Assembly (NCBI GenBank): GCA_037833965.1
Contig: AP031352.1
Coordinates: forward strand, 27,902,501 to 27,966,500
Origin: Marchantia polymorpha subsp. ruderalis
Lineage: Eukaryota > Streptophyta > Marchantiopsida > Marchantiales > Marchantiaceae
Direction: 5' to 3'
Length of the DNA: 64,000 nucleotides
The position numbers and the translations under genes are program-made. The stretch's first letter is position 1. Each line of letters starts with the position of its first letter. Of this stretch, positions 1,006-56,300 are shown piece after piece. The notes under the pieces are model-generated. The model saw only the letters and a program-made list of their open reading frames with translations. It did not search any database and was not told the origin of the DNA.

Positions 1006-1854
1006 TTGATGCCAGTGTTACGTCATCTCCAAGTGCAGCAGACACGTTCTCCAGCATACATTCTGGAGAACGTACCATTGTTGGGTGACACTCGAGCCCA
1101 GTTGATGGCGAGTGTCCATCAAGTCCGAGCATGGATTGGATCAGCAGTACTGTTGGATGCTGCGAGGGTTGGATCACGGGCGCATCGTGCACGTTTGTGG
1201 TGGACCAACCTTTTGCCGCGTGAGATATTGCGTCATGCCTATGATTCGGTGAAGCGTGATACTACACTCACCGTTGACAGTATCTTGGATGTTTCCCGGC
1301 ACTCTCAAGTAGTGAGAGTTGCTAACAGGTCACCTATGGCGTTGGTGAACCGCGTAGGTCAGCCTCGGATGGCTTTACCTACATTTGTCAGTTATCCGGC
1401 ATCACATGCATATCGTGATGGTGGACCTGGACTACTATGGGACAGGACCCTACATCAATTGGTGGAGCCCAACGCTGATGAGAGAGAGTGTGCGATGGGG
1501 TTTCTTACTGGTGTGACCGCGGCTTCTTCAATTTCAGAGGCGTCGCGTCGTCAGGTTTTGGGTCAGGCTATGGACCTTAACTGCTTGACGTGGATTGTGA
1601 GCTTGGGTTTGGCCGAGCAACGCCGTTTGCGCGCAGATTTGGTGGTTGTAACACCACTTATTAGCTCATTGCCTACCGGGGCGGTAGTAGCAATGGCTGG
1701 AGGCGACAGGCGAGATATTCGTTATCCTTGGAGTTTATGGGACGTGACGAAAGGACTTGCCAGAGTTGCAGCCCATGCAGTTGGAGAGGATTCTCACGTG
1801 GAGGTGGCTACGAAGGAGGGTACAGAGAACCCTTCTTTGCAGTGTGTAGCGTAG
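1006..1854 (+). pseudogene. DNMT3-like DNA cytosine-5 methyltransferase, C-terminal half, in gypsy element
   Basis: About 282 codons match the second half of a C5-cytosine methyltransferase. Visible are motif VI (ENVP, near residue 21), the motif VIII block AHRARLWWTNL (about residues 62-72), a motif IX-like segment ERECAMGF, and a motif X-like RRQVLGQAMDL. AHRAR followed by aromatic residues and N-L, and the R-R-x-x-L-G tail, resemble DNMT3-type enzymes more than DNMT1 or CMT. Motif I (SAM binding) and motif IV (catalytic PCQ) would lie upstream of 1006, where the sequence instead becomes inverted LTR, so this copy cannot be active. It ends at an in-frame TAG and the same frame continues into RT, suggesting one polyprotein in the intact element. 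DNMT3-like subtype is my inference from motifs. Confidence 0.72.
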
Positions 1855-2694
1855 CAACCATTGACAGTGTCGCCTCCCTCTAGTGTGCCTATGGAGGAGG
1901 AATGGGAGCCATTGATTGGTTCCCAGATCACAGGAGGAGAGAGGCGACGATTGACACAATTCCTACGAGACTATAGGAGTTGTTTTGCTTTCAGTATGAA
2001 GGAGTTGGATGCGTTGATTGGACCCGGTATACGGATAGAATTGGCTAGTGATACGCCAATCTTCCGTCGTCCTTATCGATACAGTGAGATGGAGAGAGAT
2101 TTGATTCGGAGTAGGACGTTGGACCTACTGGAGGCTGGACTAGTGGAGTTATCGCATGGTGAGTATGCGTCAGCCACTGTCATGCCGGTGAAGAAGGATG
2201 TACATGGCAACTACACGGATAGGCGCATGTGTGGAGACTACCGTCCTATCAATCGGCAGACGAAGTCCGATAAGTATGCCATGCCTACACCTGAGGAGAT
2301 CTTCAATGTGGTGGGACATGCGAGGATTTTTAGTACTTTGGATCTTCGGGCAGGATACCATCAGTTGCCAATTCGGGAGGAGGACAAAACCAAGACAGCG
2401 TTTTGGGGCGTCAACTCCCACGGCAAGGATTGTTTGTATCAGTGGCGATTCTTACCCTTTGGGTTGAAGAATGCACCTGCCGAGTTTCAGAGGGTTATGG
2501 ACAGAATCCTGGCGGGGCTGGATTTTGTCAGATGTTACATTGATGATATCTTGGTGTTTAGTGACACTGTGGAGCAACACCAGATACACTTGCAGATTGT
2601 GTTTGAGCGATTGAGGGCTCATGGTTTGAGGTTACATCTGGGGAAGTGTAAGTTCTTCCAGGAGAAGGTTGAGTACTTGGGTCATGTGATATAA
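1855..2694 (+). pseudogene. gypsy reverse transcriptase
   Basis: The frame encodes a typical Ty3/gypsy reverse transcriptase. Visible blocks are MPVKKDVHGNYTDRRMCGDY, FSTLDLRAGYHQLPI, FLPFGLKNAPAEFQRVMD, the catalytic YIDDILVFS, and LGKCKFFQEKVEYLGHVI. RT copies element RNA into cDNA in the cytoplasmic particle. It opens in frame directly after the TAG that closes the methyltransferase fragment and is closed by a TAA at 2692-2694, after which the same frame continues with the RT connection region. Both stops look like single-base decay. The aspartates of the active site are intact. Confidence 0.93.
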
Positions 2695-3581
2695 CCAGGT
2701 GGTTTAGGAGTTCAGCAAGCAAAGGTGGAGGCTATTGCACGCATCCCTCGTCCCACGGATGTGAGTAGAGTTCGTGCATTTATGGGTTTAGCGAACTACT
2801 ACCGGAGGTATGTGAAGGGGTTCAGTGCTATAGCCAAGCCTTTGAACCAGTTGCTGAAGTCAGATCAGGAGTGGCAATGGGGAGATGAGCAGGAGAGAGC
2901 TTTTGTTGAGCTCAAGGCCAGGTTGGTGGCCGCTCCCATCTTGAGGAGACCTATCAGAGGTCGTTCATACCAATTGCACACTGATTGGAGTATGTTGGGA
3001 CTTGGAGCGGTGTTGACGCAGCGTGATGATGAGGGCAAGGAGTTTGTGGTTGCGTACGCTAGTCGTTCGAACAATGCAGCGGAGTCGCGGTATAGTTCTT
3101 ACGAGAGAGAGTGCTTGGCAGCGGTGTGGACTGTGGCGCACTTCAGGTGTTACTTGTTTGGTACGCAGTTCACCCTTGTTACTGATCATCAACCGCTCAA
3201 GTGGTTGATGGAGTCCGACAAGCTTACAGGGAAGCTTGCACGGTGGGCTCTCATCTTACAGGAGTATGACTTTCAGGTGGTGCATAGACCTGGAGTTGCG
3301 AACCTAGATGCCGATGGTTTGAGTCGAAACCCATGCATTAGCCAGCAGGATGACACTGGAGCTAGATGGCATGGTGAGGTTGACGAGGAGATGGTGCCTG
3401 GTTGGCATGCATCTGCCTTCATGTGTTGGTTACGTGGGAACTCCAGCAGAGAGTATCATTTGACATCTTACTCTAGTCAGAGAGTAGATGGTCGATCTCC
3501 AGATCCTGAGGTTGAGGATGGTGGTGTGGATCAGCGTGATGTACACGATGATGCATTGGTGTTGGAGTTCCTACGGACCAA
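2695..3581 (+). pseudogene. gypsy RT connection and RNase H domain
   Basis: In frame with the RT, this part starts with the connection region (VRAFMGLANYYRRYVKGFS) and continues into an RNase H domain: HTDWSMLGLGAVLTQ, ASRSNNAAESRYSSYEREC with the catalytic glutamate, and VTDHQPLKWL with the third acidic residue. The domain end is marked by VVHRPGVANLDADGLSR, the usual gypsy RNase H terminus. RNase H removes RNA from the RNA:DNA hybrid. The frame is interrupted at 3581 by solo LTR-A1 and resumes in frame at 5444. Beyond RNase H the spacer (about 3330-3580) has no recognised domain. Confidence 0.9.
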
Positions 3582-5438
3582 TGTGAGCCGAACCTTCCAC
3601 CCTTCAGCGTTTGTAGTCCAGGTGGGGGTTCGAGCTCCCATAATCTAACTTCGCTGATCACAAGCCATGTACTCACAGTGTATCCAAGACAACGAGATCA
3701 TGAACACTTGCTCTTTCACAGACAAATTATCCAAAACTGAAAATAATAGCTTGCTTTCTGCGATTTTAACAAGAGCATCAGACAAGCTCTTTGTTACATA
3801 AAGATCTAACCCAACTCTGGGTGACTTCCTCAACACTACAGCCGCTGTGGGCTTTCCTAGATCCCAGTCCCACTCCCAATTCCTACTCAGATTTCAGTAT
3901 CGATTTCTCAGCTTTCACCTTTAGACCCCACCAGATTCCTCTCTTGGATTCAACTCTCCCTTTCCAGTTTCCCATTCAGATCCCGACTGTCAGAGTTCAG
4001 TCTCAGATTTCACTTCACTCTTAGCTCCCATTCTCAGATCTTCCACTATGATTTCAGCTCCCACTCACAGATTTTACACTTCAATCTCAGATCCCACTTC
4101 AACTTCACTCTCAGATACGACTCTCCACCCACGAGAGTCTGCTTTCTCCTACTTCGAACTCTCCACACTCTGGTACACCACAAGCTCTCGCACACTGGTA
4201 CACTACAAGCTCTCCGTTACCAGGCCGAACTCCCCACTTCCAAGTCCAAGGCCGAGACACCCACAGCCCGCCTGAAATGCAACACTCGCAATGATGGGTA
4301 GTAGCCTACTCCCCTTGCGCGACTACATGCACCGCCGCCACCGCACCTGCACATTCTACATTCCTGACCACCCGATCTCCGCCCGAGGGAATCTTCTTCC
4401 GCGCACCGCCGAAGGCATCCACCCGCCGAAGACGCACGACCACACCTTTGCTTATCCATAACAGTCACTCCCGACATCCATAACTCACAGATCCTAGCTC
4501 CGTTTCACAAGTTCGTGGGCTCGTTGGAACGAGCAGGTTGAGCTCTTTCCAACGAGACCCTAACTGGGTCAAACCGTTATGAATTGAGAAAGTTATGCCT
4601 GTTTTACCCTTCGCCGAAGGCACACCGCCGAAGGCCTGTTACCTGTTATCGCCGAAGGCGCCGGCACGATGTTCGCCGGTTCAATGTCTTCCGGTTCGAT
4701 GTTGTCCTACCCTATCCGCCGCTTTCGACGCTCATAACTCAGTGACGCCTTATCCGTTTGAAGAGTTCTTGGTCTCGTTGGAACGAACGTCGCGAGCTCT
4801 TTTCAACAAGACCCTAATCAAATCAAACCGTTAACAAATGAAAAAGATATGCCGAGTTTACTGTTTCGCCGATGGCCCTTGCACGATGTTCACCGGCTCG
4901 GAGTTCGCCGAAGGCCTGCTCGCAGTTGTCGCGAAGTCCTCCGAAGCCGGAGATGTTCGCAGCCGGAGACGTCCGGAGCCGAAGACGTTCGCAGCCGGAG
5001 ACGTCCGGAGCTGAAGACGTCCGGAGCCTAAGGTGTTCGCAGCCGGGCTTGCCTCAACCCTTCCCATCAGTAACTTCCGACACTCACAACTCAATGATTC
5101 CTCATTCGTTTGAAGAGTTATTGGTCTCGTTGGAACGAGCGTTGCGAGCTCTTTCCAAGGAGACACTAACTGAGTCAAGGCGTCACACATTGAAAACGTT
5201 ATGAGGGTTTCACTGTTTCGCCGAAGGCCTTTCCCCGAAGGAACTTCACCGAAGGCTCTTCGCCGGAGACCCTGCCCTGAAAGCCCCGTTCCGGACCTTT
5301 GCCTACTAGCTATTACACCAACTCCTAATCTTACCAAAACTTCCAGAAAACTCCGAGCATAATTTTGCAAGAGCTTAAATCTAAAACTTTAACTCTCACA
5401 AGGTTAAAAAGACATGTGAGCACAGTTTTGTGCTCACA
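3582..5438 (+). mobile_element. solo LTR, family A (copy A1), inserted in gypsy pol
   Basis: A 1,857-bp unit starts TGTGAGCC and ends GCTCACA, so it has the TG...CA ends of an LTR with 7-bp terminal inverted repeats. It is flanked by ACCAA (3577-3581) and ACCAG (5439-5443), a 5-bp target duplication with one difference. Removing it restores the host pol frame. Inside are a CT-rich half with short tandem TCAGATCCCACTCACAGATT-type repeats (about 4020-4110) and a second half with three copies of a roughly 250-300-bp module carrying an inverted repeat around CTCGTTGGAA / TTCCAACGAG, plus many CGCCGAAGGC palindromes. No ORF with a recognisable product is present. Confidence 0.88.
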
Positions 5439-5443
5439 ACCAG

Positions 5444-6128
5444 CATGGTGCCAGGCATAGTGGGTGCCAAGGAGCGAGATCGTGTTCTCCAACGGGCCAA
5501 GAGGTACCGATTGGAGGGATCACATGTTCTCCGAGTATGGGAGGACGGTAAGGTACGAGTAGTACCACATCTAGCCCAGAGAGCACGCATTGTGAGGCAT
5601 GCTCATGAGGAGTTGGGACATTTTGGAGTGAAGCGTACATACAGCTTACTCCTTGGTCAGTATTGGTGGCGTGGTATGCATACTCAGGTACAGCAGTTGG
5701 TATCACGTTGCATGGTTTGTGATCGAGTGAGGGCATCATTCAATGCCCCGACACAAGTGTTACATCCATTACCCATCATGGGGTTGGGTTACCGTTGGAG
5801 TTTGGACTTTGCTGGACCACTACCTTTGACTGTACGACATCATCGGTATGTGTTGGTGATGGTGGAGCATTTCTCCAAGTGGATTGAGTTGGTGGCATTA
5901 CCTGACAAGGCAAGTGAGGGAGTAGCGTATGCTTTTCTTGACAGAGTGCTTAGTCACTATGGTGCACCAGCTGAGGTGTTGACCGATCAGGGAATGGAGT
6001 TTCAGGGTGAGTTTCAGGTCTTGTGCGACAAGGCACTGATTGATCATCGGACCACGTCGCGAGATCATCCAGAGGCGGATGGTTTAGCTGAACGTGTTGT
6101 ACAGACGGTGAAGAGGGCGTTGCGCAAG
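5444..6128 (+). pseudogene. gypsy integrase, N-terminal zinc-binding and catalytic core
   Basis: The host element resumes after LTR-A1. An HHCC zinc-binding region is visible (HAHEELGHFGVKRT followed by CMVC), then the catalytic core with D in SLDFAGPLP, D in VLTDQGMEF and E in HPEADGLAERVVQT, the D,D-35-E pattern. Integrase inserts the cDNA into chromosomal DNA. The frame is then cut by solo LTR-A2 at 6128, and codons resume in register at 8003 (RALRK followed by YGLQNG). The core residues are intact in this copy. Confidence 0.9.
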
Positions 6129-7997
6129 TGTGAGCCAAACCTTCCCACCCTTCAGCGTTTGTAGTCCGGGTGGGGGTTCGAACTCCCATAATCTAACTTC
6201 TCTGATTGCAAGCCATGTGCTCAAAGTGTATCCAAGACAACGAGATCATAAACACTTGCTCGTTCACAGACAATTTATCCAGAACGGAAAATGATAACTT
6301 GCTGTCTGCTGTCTCCACAAGGGCAGCAGACAAACTCTTTGTTACATAAAGATCTAACTCAACTCTGGGTGACTTTTTCAACACCACAGCCGCTGTGGTC
6401 TATCCTAGATCCCAGTCCCACTCCCAATTCCTACTCAGACCTCAGTGTCGATTTCTCAGCTTCCACCTTCAGACCCCACCAGATTCCTCTCTCAGATTCA
6501 ACTTTGCCTTTTCAGTGTCAAATTCAGATTCTGACTGTCAGATCTCAGTCTCGGATTTCACTTCACTCTCAGCTCCCATTCTCAGATCTTCCACTCTGAT
6601 CTCAGATCCCACTCACAGATGTTACACTTCAATCTCAGATCCCATTCAAATTTCACTCTCTAATACGACTCTCCATCCACGAGAGTTTGCTTCCTCCTAC
6701 TTCGAACTCTCCACACTCCCCTCCTAATTCTCACCACTTCCGTCTCCACACACGCACACCACCAGCTCTCCGTTCCCAGGCCGAACTCCCCACTTCGAAG
6801 TTCAAAGCCGAGACACACACAGCCCGCGTGAAAATGCAACACTCGCAATGATGGGTAGCTGCCTACTCCCCTTGCGCGACTACATGCACCGTCGTCTTGC
6901 CTCCCCCACTTGACTTCAAGCCGCCGCCGCTGCCACACCTGCACATTCTACATTCTTGACCACCCGATCACCGCCGGAGGGAATCCTCTTCCGCGCACCG
7001 CCGAAGGCATCCACCCGCCAAAGACGCACGACCACACCTTTGCTTATCCATAACAGTCACTCCCGACACCCATAACTCACAGATCCTAGCTCCGTTTCAC
7101 AAGTTTGTGGGCTCGTTGGAACGACCAGGTCGAGCTCTTTCCAACGAGACCCTAACTGGGTCAAACCGTTATGAATTGAGAAAGTTATGCCTGTTTTACC
7201 CTTCGCCGAAGGCACACCGCCGAAGGCCTGTTACCTGTTATCGCCGAAGGCGCCGGCACGATGTTCGCCGGTTTGATGTCTTCCGGTTCGATGTTGTCCT
7301 ACCCTATCCGCCGCTTTCGACGCTCATAACTCAGTGACGCCTTATCCGTTTGAAGAGTTCTTGGTCTCGTTGGAACGAGCGTCGCGAGTTCTTTCCAACA
7401 AGACCCTAATCAAATCAAACCGTTAACAAATGAAAAAGATATGCCGAGTTTACTGTTTCGCCGATGGCCCTTGCACGATGTTCACCGGCTCGGAGTTCGC
7501 CGACCCCGAGTTCGCCGAAGGCCTGCTCGCAGTTGTCGCGAAGTCGTCCGAAGCCGGAGATGTTCGCAGCCGGAGACGTTCGCAGCCGGAGACGTTCGCA
7601 GCCGGACTTGCCTCAACCCTTCCCATCAATAACTTCCGACACTCACAACTCAGTGATTCCTCATCTGTTTGAAGAGTTCTTGGTTTCGTTGGAACGAGCG
7701 TTGCGAGCTCTTTCCAAGGAGACACTAACTGAGTCAAGGAGTCACACATTGAAAACGTTATGAGGGTTTCACTGTTTCGCCGAAGGCCTTTCCCCGAAGG
7801 AACTTCACCGAAGGCTCTTCGCCGGAGACCCTGCCCTGAAAGCCCCGTTCCGGACCTTTGCCTACTAGCTATTACACCAACTCCTAATCTTACCAAAACT
7901 TCCAGAAAACTCCGAGCATAATTTTGCAAGAGCTTAAATCTAAAACTTTAACTCTCACAAGGTTAAAAAGACATGTGAGCACAATTTTGTGCTCACA
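6129..7997 (+). mobile_element. solo LTR, family A (copy A2), inserted in gypsy integrase
   Basis: This 1,869-bp unit is highly similar to 3582-5438 along its whole length, with the same TGTGAGCC start and GCTCACA end. It is flanked by a perfect 5-bp target duplication GCAAG (6124-6128 and 7998-8002). The perfect duplication against the one-mismatch duplication of A1 fits a somewhat younger insertion, though a single base is weak evidence. Both copies sit in the same host element in the same orientation 690 bp apart, so each arose by a full insertion followed by LTR-LTR recombination, or by gene conversion between them. Confidence 0.9.
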
Positions 7998-8002
7998 GCA
8001 AG

Positions 8003-8719
8003 TATGGCCTGCAGAATGGTCATCTTGGGGACTGGGATATCCAGTTACCGTGGTTGGCCATGGGATATCGGTTCAGTCGGCAGGCATCCTTGGCTTCCTT
8101 CTCACCATATTTTCTATTGTACGGCCGAGATCCAGACTTGCCAACATCGATTCGTCGTGAGTCTAGCGAGGTGGTGAACCTTGATGACCCGAATATGTGG
8201 GTGAGAGTATGTTCTCAACATGCAGAGCTCTTTCGGAAAGTTATGCCTGCAGCGTTTGAGAATCTTGCGATTGCTCAATATAGAGATACGTTGCGGTATG
8301 CAACCATTCGGGGAGGAGGTTATCGACCATCAATTCGTAGATTCCATGTGGGAGACTACGTCTATCTACAGCAGACTGCACCGACGACATTGGATGTGAC
8401 GGCGGGACGCACCATCTTGCGGGTGCGGGAGGTGTTACCTTCTGGAGTTCTCCTGTTGGAGGGTCGTGACGGCGTTGTTTGGAAGGATCATGTGCGCAAT
8501 TGTGCGCCATGCCACCTCCCAAACGTAGATGGCACTATGGACCCAAGCTTAGCGATAGTACGTGCTGGCTTGAGGTGCATGCTGTGTGGGTCGGCTGGTC
8601 AGGCGGCCCGTATGTTGGTGTGTGATAGGTGTTCTAGGGGATGGCACATGTTGTGCCTGACTCCGCCTATCGATGTTATTCCGGCTGGACGATGGGTTTG
8701 TCCTCGATGTACTTCATAG
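8003..8719 (+). pseudogene. gypsy integrase C-terminal region fused to a PHD finger
   Basis: The integrase frame continues with LASFSPYFLLYGRDPDLP and a C-terminal beta-rich region (FHVGDYVYLQQ, then VREVLPSGVLLLEGRDG). About 30 residues later comes a PHD zinc finger (roughly 8573-8716): CMLC, then CDRC, H in GWHMLC, and CPRC, the C4HC3 spacing with the conserved W two residues before the last Cys pair. PHD fingers commonly read histone H3 tails; here the finger replaces the chromodomain of chromoviral integrases and may steer integration (inference). This segment itself has no stops and ends at TAG, 8717-8719. Confidence 0.87.
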
Positions 8720-8889
8720 GGGTAGATGACTTGATCTTCACATGTTATGAATTGCAGATAGGCGACTAACGATGGAGCGACATAGCACCCGGCCTACTGG
8801 TTCGCGCACCCACGAAGGTGTATAGCATGTAGTTGTAGATAGGGCTACCTGGGAGTCAGAGGGACCTGACCGCCAGCTAGGGGTGCGAG
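8720..8889 (+). other. element 3' untranslated stretch
   Basis: About 170 bp between the PHD stop codon and the first LTR-like copy. No ORF or repeat is recognised. It probably holds the polypurine tract, but I cannot place it with confidence. Confidence 0.4.
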
Positions 8890-9006
8890 TTGTGACGTTT
8901 GAGTGTGTACTCTCTCGCGCCTTATATGTGTGTATGTGTGTGCGTATGTGTATGTGAGTAGCATGTCAGCGATGTAGAGTGTATGGCGATATATATTCGC
9001 ACGACA
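8890..9006 (+). repeat. LTR-like direct repeat, first copy (partial)
   Basis: This 117-bp stretch repeats at 9303-9419 with few differences, including the TGTGTATGTGTGTGCGTATG tract and the ...TTCGCACGACA terminus. It is the inner part of the 350-bp unit at 9071-9419, so the element's 3' end carries a partial tandem duplication of LTR sequence. Confidence 0.7.
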
Positions 9007-9070
9007 GCTGTAATGTAGTTACGAGTCGGCTCACGAAGTTTAGACACTTACTATATTTGGCCGTGAAGTT

Positions 9071-9419
9071 AGGGTTCGGGTCACGAGGGGTATACAGTCG
9101 GGGACGGCTCGAAGAACGTTAGTTCTTCGAGTCGAGCCTGGAAGCGTCGGGAGCCTAGAGCGACTTTCCCTTTTGCGTCGACCTGGATTCTCCGAGTGTG
9201 GAGTGGGTTGGGCTTGACTCATGTTTGTGACGGTGACGGTTTGTTGCCAATAGGGTAATTGACTGACGGGAATTCCAGTGGGGAATTTCCCGTCTATTTC
9301 AGTTGTGACGTTTGAGTGTGTACTCTCTCGCGCCTTTTATGTGTGTATGTGTGTGCGTATGTGTATGTGAGTAGCATGTCAGCGATGTAGAGTGTATGGC
9401 GATATATATTCGCACGACA
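9071..9419 (+). repeat. LTR-like repeat of the methyltransferase gypsy element
   Basis: Reverse complement of 651-1000 over its full length, ending ...CGCACGACA. It includes a short palindrome CTCGAAGAACGTTAGTTCTTCGAG near 9109-9132. The start of the LTR cannot be fixed: upstream sequence 9007-9070 has no second copy in the window. Confidence 0.65.
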
Positions 9420-53300: not shown

Positions 53301-56300
53301 TTCTCTTTTTGGTACTGCCCCCTCCATCGGATGAACATTCTTTTTATGCGGGAAGCGTTTTAAAGTCAAGAGAGAACATTGCAGGTAAAAAATTTCGCGG
53401 TTGATTGTTTTCTAGTAAAGGGATGTTTTTACTTACGCTGCTACTGTCCTACACGAGGAAACGTGTTCATTCCTATTGGCGAGTTTATTTATATCAGAAT
53501 GAGAAGAATATTGGTTGGCATTTCATTGGCATTGACCTGTGACTATTCGGCTGCGTAGGTGGGTTCATGGCGAACCTTCAGAGTGAACTGCCAGCGCTCA
53601 GACCGTTGTCCGTGATTGCACTTCTTTTCCTCCTCCAAGCAACGTCATCGAAAGCTTTCTACGGCGAAAAACCGTCTTGGCTGAAGAATGGAAACGGCAC
53701 AGAATATGCTGTATCATTAAAAAGCGCAATCATATCCATTTTGCAACGGCAAGGTTTTGGGCAGAAAGTCATTACCAATTTGGCTGCCGACCATCACTAC
53801 TTTGAAGGTCAAAACTCCTATAATCCTCAGCAGATGTCGGATGTGGGATTAACTGCATTGATGCCCACCTTTATGCGTGATTGGCCTCGAACACTGACAT
53901 GGGATTCTAAGCTAGAAGGGGAGGCCTTCTTACCAACTTTTGCGAGACTATTTCAATATCTGCTACAAGAATGTGGGTCACCTGTTCTTGATGCCCTGCG
54001 AGTTCCCTTGGAGGACGCTTGCAATGACGTGGAGGAAAGGGGAAAACAGTGTATAGCTGCTGAGATTATGGCTGGTCTCCTACATTCAGATGTCGAAGGC
54101 ATTGTAGAAGCATGGGATGATTGGATGAAGCCTTTGCTTCACAAAGTCGTGTTGCAATCCACATTGGAATCAGCGGCTGAGTGGGCAGCCTGTGTACGTT
54201 TTGCGGTGGGTGGGGAGGGCAGAGATGGGCGGGAAGTTCCCAAGCTTCGATATAAGATCCTTGACTGTCTAGCAGAGCCACTGCCAGATCGGGCTTCAAC
54301 TAGCTTGCTTACGAAACGCCTCACTCTTCTTCGTGCAGCCGTCAGTGAATTACTGCCCATGTCAAGGCTAGACTGCGATGTCAAATTTCAAATTAGTCTT
54401 TTAGATGAAATCATGACATACATGTCGCACAGTGCACCTCAGGTAACTACACGGTCAATGGAAAGGGTCCCTCAATGTGTCAGTATTTGCATGCAGCACA
54501 AAGTTGGGGCCATCTTGATAAAACTCATTTGCTGGGTGTCGCTCTGTATCGTTTGCATCACAGACTGGAACGGAGAGGGAAATGAACTTGGTTCCGTTCT
54601 AATATACATGTGGGCACATGTGGTAACTGTAGGTTCGTCAAGGGGTGGGTCGGTTAATGTCTATCATTTGTGCCAACCTACAACTAGCAGCTGAATCAGG
54701 CTCACTATCTTCAACCGAGAAAGATGCTCCTCTATCGCCTACTGATTCGCCCATGTCTCCGGAAGTAACCGATGCGAATGGAGACTGCAAAATGCCATTG
54801 GACTGGAGGGCAGCACTAGTGAGTGGTGCACTGTCGGCTGCTGAAAAAATTCAAAGTGCAGGTGGGCCGGATCTTAGCGGCGATGCTTCTACTTTCGAAG
54901 GAGTATACAGTAAAGAAAGCAAAGAGGCGGTTCGGTGGATGGAAACGGTGAGGTCATTTGGTCACTTTGGATTTTATTCTAATGATTACTCATCTCTACG
55001 AAGTACTTTAGTGGTTCATTTTTAACCGGGTTTGTGTTATGATGGTTTTTACAGTTTTGTTTCACTTATTCAGGCGAGGGGAAACTTTTCTTCAAGCTCG
55101 GACAGGCAAAACCAGCGAAACAGTCCATCTGCTAGTTCTCTTGCGCAGAAAATATGCACGTCACGTTCTGATGCTGTGGACTTTCTTTGACAGGCTTTGC
55201 ACTTCGTTATCGCGAGTGTCAGATCAGGCAGTGGCCATGTGCTTTTGAGCGTCACAAGGGAGCTGCTACACCCGATTCTTTCTGTGCAGGTTTGCCATCT
55301 CTGCCTTCTATTGACCCTGCTACCCTCAATGGAGACAGGAAATTCCGGAAGCAATTAGATTTCCACATCGTTGTAATTGGATATTTCGTGTACCAAACCG
55401 TAAGATATGTTTGCCGATTATGTTTCTATACAGGAAACGTGGAATAAAGAGCTGGCAAAGTTGGCAAAGTCAGCTATGCATCTTCTACGATGGCAGCCGT
55501 TCGGAAGTGTACACTTAGGAACAACAATTGCCACTGCTCTAGCTGCTTCGACAGATAGTATATGGCACACGAGAGTAGCTGCTTTGAAGTTTATGCAGCC
55601 GGTGGTATACAGGTAAATATCTGTGGTTTCTATTCCTGTTTCATGTTTTACAGTTTGTTGGAGACTACAACTGAACTAATTTTGGGAGTTTCTGTTCTAC
55701 TCTTCACGGATTCACGTTCAGGCACACGTACATCATGTCGGATAGCGACATGAGAGCTTTGTGGGACCGTATAAGGGAGCTGCTATCAGATAATCAGCTG
55801 GAGGTACTTCAAATATGTAAATCATGTTCTCCTGTATGGTTTTTTTCTTCTTTTGCTAAGCTAAGGTCAATCCAGCAAAGCGGGTCGCTGAAGTCGATGA
55901 TCTAACTCACAGGTGAGGATATTGGCGGCAACGACATTGACCGGTATGATGAAAGGACCTGGAATCAGGTTTGCCGAAGAATTTAGAAACACCATACTTG
56001 AAAAAGCCTTGGTGCAACTCGGCCAAAGAACAAAAAACAGGTCGAAAACAGGAATTCTTTACCTTTTCAATGTTCTGCCAATTTGAGTCTTCTCACTAGG
56101 TAAAGTAAAATGACGTGGAAACAAACAATCAACCATAACCTGCTAGCCTGTGTTTCATTATCGGATCGACAGAAAGAAGTCTTCTGCAATCATCCATGCC
56201 TTTTTTTTAGCACAGTCCTCAAGTACATCATCTTGCCTCTACACACATGGGCATTCAATCGAGCATCACTAACTGTATGCGAATGAGTTGTAATCCGTGA

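Follow-up and report, generated by a model that had tools for sequence, protein, structure and literature searches.

Anatomy of the element in the window

We analysed a 64,000-nucleotide stretch of the liverwort Marchantia polymorpha subsp. ruderalis (GenBank assembly GCA_037833965.1, contig AP031352.1, positions 27,902,501 to 27,966,500 of the forward strand), referred to here as the window and numbered from its first nucleotide. Positions 1007–8719 hold a single broken copy of a Ty3/gypsy-type retrotransposon encoding a DNMT3-like methyltransferase (MT), reverse transcriptase (RT), RNase H, integrase, and a C4HC3 PHD finger (Table 1). An initial annotation, made from the sequence alone, had proposed this combination, and both the reading frames and Pfam (RVT_1, RT_RNaseH, rve, and PHD) confirmed it. 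The frame at 952–1854 carries MT motifs VI (ENV), VIII (HRARL), and X and closes with a TAG at 1852–1854, after which RT continues in-frame; as annotated, motifs VI, VIII, IX-like, and X share the frame of RT with one TAG between them. Behind RT, the coding part runs through RNase H, integrase, and the PHD finger to 8719, and in the alignment the PHD finger retains every zinc ligand. The MT piece of this copy alone gave no Pfam match.

The copy had been called dead, and it is broken in several ways. Everything before motif VI is lost, the motif I region included, a nonsense codon (TAA) lies at 2692, and two solo-long terminal repeat (LTR)-like insertions of ~1.86 kb split the coding region, with flanking repeats alike at 4/5 and 5/5 bases. 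The TAG between MT and RT, in contrast, is no damage. Bounds of 1006 and 8719 did not hold for the element: it reaches 9419, and position 1006 is a breakpoint, not a terminus, with 651–999 being an inverted piece of the same type of 3′ end. We considered 651–999 as the 5′ end of an intact unit and rejected it, as the piece and the right end of the element share no matching target-site duplication (TSD). Three points described below escaped the initial annotation: that the UAG is conserved, that the repeats are split, and how broad the family is.

Full-length copies across the genome

The assembly searched comprises nine contigs (241 Mb). MT matches were scored at 138 places among 601 candidates and RT matches at 150; both lists are lower bounds, so that the MT recurs at no fewer than 138 places, many of them with stops inside the MT. 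Full-length members, which the annotation had predicted, were found at loci L031–L034, with a first open reading frame (ORF1) of 1,355–1,365 amino acids and a second (ORF2) of 1,042–1,045. The element order is gag, protease, MT, UAG CAACCA, RT, RNase H, integrase, and PHD, with a pair of CCHC knuckles and the protease motif DSGA being read by eye in ORF1. The motifs missing from the window copy had been expected upstream in the same frame, where motif I (DLFGG) is present in 29/30 best-scoring MT loci, the window copy being the sole exception, and motif IV (PCQG) in 27/30.

Two observations had been named that would overturn the initial proposal, copies without the MT and an MT that belongs to a host gene struck by the element; neither was made among the copies inspected. 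A scored MT lies just upstream on the same strand in 108 of the 150 scored RT copies. The other 42 have no scored partner; we inspected 11 of these (one at C2:20756255), and the MT region was present in seven and truncated or rearranged within the MT in four. Among the copies inspected, an MT-less element type was not borne out.

The Pol order of RT, RNase H, and integrase is that of Ty3/gypsy elements, and the best PDB match was Ty3 Gag-Pol (2.5e-100). The integrase is of the DDE type, as judged by its Pfam rve domain and a triad read by eye in L031 only. A D,D35E pattern matched 0/95 relatives (those matching MT, RT, and integrase strongly) and also missed L031 owing to its spacing limits, so that it is no evidence either way. 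No chromodomain was listed in ORF2 by Pfam at E 0.1.

The copies are unevenly spread. The smallest contig, C1 (5.6 Mb), which may be a sex chromosome, holds 10 of the 138 scored MT matches where 3.2 are expected (Poisson P 0.0017), or 1.8 per Mb vs 0.37–0.71 on the other contigs. Tandem and nested copies were seen at L035, L036, and L038 (C2:20.75 Mb and C3:16.77–16.78 Mb); their tails stop at repeat A2 without B2, and in L035 the A2 end is followed ~100 bp further by the 5′ end of another copy.

Identity and conservation of the methyltransferase

The MT of L031 matched Pfam DNA_methylase at 2.7e-10. Its best PDB match was DNMT3A (3.7e-10), followed by 4onj (1.4e-4), which we take to be a DRM, and HaeIII (2.3e-4). 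The motifs stand in L031 ORF1 at residues 968 (DLFGG), 1054 (GWPCQG), 1100 (ENVPLL), 1135 (GSRAHRARL), and 1262 (QVLGQAMDLN), with motif IX not clearly placed, and the order I, IV, VI, VIII, X, free of the DRM rearrangement, is that of DNMT3. By sequence and predicted fold, the MT is closer to DNMT3 than to other C5 methyltransferases, and the DNMT3-like label first given to it was apt.

Between two subfamilies, the ratio of nonsynonymous to synonymous substitution rates (dN/dS) is 0.11–0.13 in the MT core vs 0.74–0.96 in the tail behind the MT. Judged by their substitution patterns, the MT core and the PHD finger are under purifying selection between these subfamilies. The EN string of motif VI is found in 92/95 relatives and the Cys string of motif IV in 85/95. 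A scan of IMG/VR found no relatives of the MT.

A conserved UAG between methyltransferase and reverse transcriptase

TAG CAACCA stands between MT and RT in 30/30 best-scoring loci, the window copy included, and likewise in the diverged subfamily L034; with this recurrence, the stop is no lesion. CAACCA matches the consensus CARYYA, which is the leaky-stop readthrough context of tobacco mosaic virus and some plant retrotransposons. Among database proteins with protease and MT only, 22/30 (four of them from Marchantia) end 75–144 residues past the MT, though these may be the ends of gene models or contigs. RNA folding behind the UAG gave a weak signal (z = −2.2, with 5/200 shuffles equally good). 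We infer from this arrangement a programmed UAG readthrough in the Marchantia family, which would place the MT on the Gag side.

Split terminal repeats

The element is bounded by split direct repeats in the layout A1...B1-A2-B2, with A1 at the 5′ end and B2 at the 3′ end. The right end is sharp, ...CGCACGACA, in 10/10 right flanks read, and B1-A2-B2 was present in 37/41 tail matches listed (best 40 of 841 candidates scored, with the L031 tail as query). Upstream of gag, the left side varies between copies; A1 (TGTCATG...), a direct copy of A, lies 2–4 kb upstream of the gag side in 3/4 extended left flanks. All three copies for which both ends were found have 4-bp target duplications outside A1 and B2 (ATCT, AAAG, and TGTG).

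Within single copies, A1 and A2 agree at 293/293 and 284/285 positions and, in a third copy, at 288 positions with three mismatches and a single gap. In 9/15 tails B1 equals B2, in 5/15 the two differ by one mismatch, and B2 is short in L031. This near-identity shows that each transposition renews A and B together and that the copies, which were picked among the best matches, are young. Immediately following A, at 4/4 junctions, CTCGAAGAACT is complementary over 11 nt to AGTTCTTCGAG inside A, which suggests self-priming.

A plain LTR model was rejected, with no 5′ copy of the 3′ end inside four 10-kb loci, and the identical, simple terminal LTR pair of Ty3/gypsy elements is lacking. Given the split repeats, we regard the family as a Ty3/gypsy variant and not a canonical LTR element. 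Split repeats of the order A...B-A-B are a character of DIRS/PAT elements; the tyrosine recombinase and lack of TSDs that also define that group were not found, and because of its DDE integrase and 4-bp TSDs the family was not classed as DIRS.

Between A1 and gag, loci L059, L060, L061, and L062 carry differing sequences of 2–4 kb, and many left ends have a poly-A-containing stretch. At L062:1061–4430, this region includes part of a Sec63-Brl (Brr2-like helicase) gene, uninterrupted and in antisense orientation (Pfam 6e-35). The 5′-side sequence looks like captured host or other transcripts.

Table 1. Features of the broken element copy and its flanks, in window coordinates
Feature	Positions	Strand	Basis or remark
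Inverted segment from the 3′ end of the element, comprising B2 and most of A2	651–999	−	Joined to the MT fragment; 96.8% identity with 9071–9419; window self-BLAST
DNMT3-like MT, C-terminal part (motifs VI, VIII, IX-like, X)	1007–1851	+	Motif I absent in window copy
In-frame stop UAG followed by CAACCA, conserved	1852–1860	+	Identical in 30/30 best-scoring loci and L034
RT core (RVT_1)	2215–2691	+	Pfam 2.3e-34
Nonsense codon TAA closing the RT core	2692–2694	+	L031–L034 open here
RNase H (RT_RNaseH)	2962–3267	+	Pfam 4.8e-37
Solo-LTR-like insertion, TGTGAGCC...TGCTCACA	3582–5438	+	Flanks ACCAA/ACCAG, 4/5 bases alike
Integrase: H2C2 zinc-binding and core (rve)	5577–6071	+	Pfam 5.6e-16 and 2.1e-13
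Second solo-LTR-like insertion, same family as 3582–5438 (88–93% alike)	6129–7997	+	5-bp duplication GCAAG
PHD finger, C4HC3	8576–8710	+	Pfam 3e-11 and alignment
Repeat B1, 119 nt	8888–9006	+	Self-BLAST and repeat comparison
Repeat A2, ~293 nt; relatives show the TG...CA form	9009–9300	+	Self-BLAST and repeat comparison
Repeat B2, 119 nt, 118/119 identical to B1; element 3′ end ...CGCACGACA	9301–9419	+	Self-BLAST and repeat comparison

Elsewhere in the window, an open frame at 53543–54694 has a weak PSME4-like HEAT repeat match (5.8e-6).

Relatives and phylogeny

Three protein searches, two of which contributed the best 120 of 193 and the best 120 of 130 matches, returned relatives from Marchantia polymorpha, M. 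paleacea, Riccia sorocarpa, Calypogeia fissa, and four Sphagnum species, from the algae Closterium sp. NIES-53, Haematococcus lacustris, and Monoraphidium neglectum, and from many metagenomes; the lineages of three were checked. The nearest named proteins are from M. polymorpha (95% identity over the MT, in a database clustered at 90%), and one M. paleacea protein was among the matches listed (75% identity). No protein named Klebsormidium was among the matches listed from these two sets and the one further search.

By position of the MT, the 95 relatives fall into 11 of type I, with the MT before RT, and 84 of type II, with the MT between RNase H and integrase. The named type I proteins are from Marchantia and Closterium, two of the 11 being Marchantia copies with ORF1 and ORF2 joined, and the named type II proteins are from Haematococcus and Monoraphidium. 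The MT of Haematococcus protein P0205 is unseen by Pfam at E 0.001 and was placed by protein search and our own domain models. In P0018, a shortened gene model from Sphagnum, the MT comes first; this protein fell below the score limit, outside the 95. The C4HC3 zinc-ligand pattern of the PHD finger is present in 81/95 relatives, or 3/11 of type I and 78/84 of type II, and several of its top PDB matches are readers of the H3 tail. We also note that type II protein P0037, from a metagenome, has a G-patch domain behind the MT at the Pfam cut-off (1.6e-4), and that P0074 and P0203 are labelled as bacterial metagenome-assembled genomes, probably through eukaryotic contamination.

Trees were built from 45 proteins, including 34/84 of type II (four with a named source, one of these lacking a species, and 30 drawn at random). 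The types stand apart in both the MT tree (support 97/86) and the Pol tree (100/97). Type I branching is concordant between the two, with one pair weakly placed in Pol (80/32). MT and Pol distances correlate at r 0.72 in type II and 0.98 in type I, with 0/2000 permutations as high. Across relatives spanning green algae, mosses, and liverworts, the divergence of MT thus parallels that of Pol for the most part. When a partial DNMT3A was used as outgroup, it formed a very long branch and support fell to 93/90 (type II) and 76/82 (type I); the long-branched P0043 was left out of this tree and of the distance correlation. The trees contained no host DNMT3, and as such they would fit a single capture with a later move of the MT just as well as two separate captures.

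Proposed mechanism and alternative explanations

In our view, this is probably a young MT- and PHD-bearing family of Ty3/gypsy type, in which readthrough would give the MT the dosage of Gag, the MT would methylate the element's own DNA, and the PHD finger would guide integration. Translation would mostly halt at the UAG, yielding Gag-protease-MT, and occasional readthrough would add the Pol part. The MT would then be made in Gag-like amounts and packaged with element RNA and complementary DNA (cDNA). For published DNMT retrotransposons, de novo methylation of element DNA has been suggested from their CG activity (PMC5890265), and by analogy the MT may methylate new element DNA de novo, inside the particle or at integration. 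The integrase-side PHD finger would tether the integration complex to a particular state of the histone H3 tail, and reverse transcription may start by self-priming, with the 11 nt behind A1 pairing with the 11-nt run inside A.

Several observations weigh against this reading. Pfam identified no protease in ORF1, and gag scored only below threshold (0.0089–0.015); the metagenome relative P0164 gave an Asp_protease_2 match (1.3e-5). MT and RT are unbroken in one protein in seven type I relatives (P0034, P0036, P0164, P0168, P0170, P0171, and P0187), so that the UAG is not general in type I. The PHD finger is missing from 8/11 type I proteins, and the fold predicted from one sequence for the integrase C-terminus and PHD finger was unusable (predicted local distance difference test score 33.5). 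Motif IV reads EC instead of PC in 62/95 relatives, which is unusual for a C5 methyltransferase; the Cys is retained, and Marchantia has PC. Within subfamily 1 (L031 or L032 vs L033), dN/dS of the MT is noisy and weaker (0.24–0.26), with 0.67–0.68 for the PHD finger and 0.22 and 2.4 for RT, as expected from few changes or decay. Several type II proteins (e.g., P0251, P0214, and P0189) change partners between the MT tree and the Pol tree, in some cases with fair support, making exchange within type II possible. Finally, A1 was recovered in only three of the four extended left flanks.

A wider claim would be that MT and PHD finger have been inherited together in one retrotransposon lineage since about the chlorophyte/streptophyte split, with one move of the MT, and that in Marchantia the MT is dosed by readthrough and methylates cDNA before integration. 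We put this forward tentatively and consider it possible rather than probable; if true, it would make the family a very old selfish epigenetic system and not a set of recent independent captures.

Of the competing explanations, the most serious is counter-defence in trans, in which MT and PHD finger act on host chromatin or methylation targets, or mark cDNA as self against a host DNA-sensing or restriction-like response, instead of silencing copies of the element itself. In its favour, silencing itself and nothing more would seem a high price for a mobile element to pay, the MT would be present in Gag-like amounts, and both domains are conserved between subfamilies; young copies also exist, which means that the enzyme has not shut down the element that carries it. 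The layout nevertheless suggests that the MT is packaged with nucleic acid of the element itself, a target in trans is hypothetical, and we consider this explanation rather unlikely. An MT acting on RNA in the manner of DNMT2, on element RNA or tRNA, would suit an enzyme sitting in an RNA-filled particle, and DNMT2-type chains are among the weak PDB sequence matches (0.0023–2.2). DNMT2 was not among the 50 structure matches listed, which excludes nothing; sequence and predicted fold favour DNMT3, however, and make an RNA substrate improbable.

That the MT is a captured passenger without function might be argued from the dead window copy, from the stops in many of the 138 MT matches, and from the within-subfamily 1 dN/dS. 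Against this stand the contrast between MT core and adjacent tail between subfamilies and the retention of the motif VI and motif IV strings across the relatives, so that a functionless MT is very improbable. An origin of the MT in a host gene hit by the element has in its favour that the window copy starts mid-MT, and nothing else. It is refuted by the copies: MT matches recur at 138 places, in 108 of which RT follows closely on the same strand, and a host gene struck by an insertion would not recur in this way; MT and Pol also diverge in parallel.

Comparison with known systems

Single features of the Marchantia family have counterparts elsewhere. REM1 of Chlamydomonas reinhardtii is likewise Ty3/gypsy-related with a PHD finger, which is encoded alongside a chromodomain by an inverse ORF of its own; unlike the Marchantia family, it is not known to carry an MT. 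Chromoviruses, which are gypsy elements, also place a chromatin-reading module behind the integrase, a chromodomain where the Marchantia family has a PHD finger. Tf1/sushi elements self-prime from a site behind the 5′ LTR that is complementary to a run at the transcript start, and are not known to have split repeats, an MT, or a PHD finger; in the Marchantia family, comparable self-priming is suggested by the 11-nt complementarity alone.

DNMT retrotransposons have so far come from dinoflagellates and one charophyte and were interpreted as separate captures. The accessible part of a 2025 DNMT survey names only streptophyte and dinoflagellate retrotransposon cases, and in a study of moss DNMT3, Marchantia appears a single time, within the reference list. 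We found no land-plant or PHD-bearing DNMT retrotransposon in the open-access literature searched by title and abstract opening, with subscription papers mostly outside the search. A methylome study of the Marchantia life cycle gives, in its accessible text, five host methyltransferases of three classes and names none as transposon-borne (PMC5784723). A transposon-borne MT beside these host enzymes bears on Marchantia methylomes. The family has complete reading frames, recent insertions, and an attached reader domain in a liverwort that is a genetic model plant, so that the question of why a transposon carries a transposon-silencing class of enzyme becomes testable in a tractable host.

The initial annotation had mentioned published retrotransposon-borne MTs from dinoflagellates and a charophyte, correctly so (PMC5890265). 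As described there, the dinoflagellate elements SymbioDIRS-Dnmt3 and SymbioLINE-Dnmt also carry DNMTs, and the DIRS type has the same repeat order; they use tyrosine recombinase or long interspersed nuclear element (LINE) machinery, whereas the Marchantia family has a DDE integrase. The closest counterpart is KnitGypsy-Dnmt3 of Klebsormidium nitens (de Mendoza et al. 2018, PMC5890265). It is described as having a Pol of Gypsy type and a Dnmt3-type MT that lacks introns and is under purifying selection, and its repeats are said to be those of DIRS elements, for which the drawing in that paper gives A - coding - B - A - B. Gypsy-type Pol, Dnmt3-type MT, and this repeat order are shared with the Marchantia family. 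The MT of KnitGypsy-Dnmt3 is reported within the Pol ORF, as an independent acquisition, and the words PHD, Marchantia, and readthrough occur nowhere in the main text of that paper. Compared by description, the Marchantia family differs in its land-plant host, an MT ahead of a conserved UAG, a C-terminal PHD finger, and chlorophyte relatives. The kind of element is thus known from Klebsormidium (PMC5890265), and its occurrence in land plants, the PHD finger, and the Gag-side layout are new within the literature searched.

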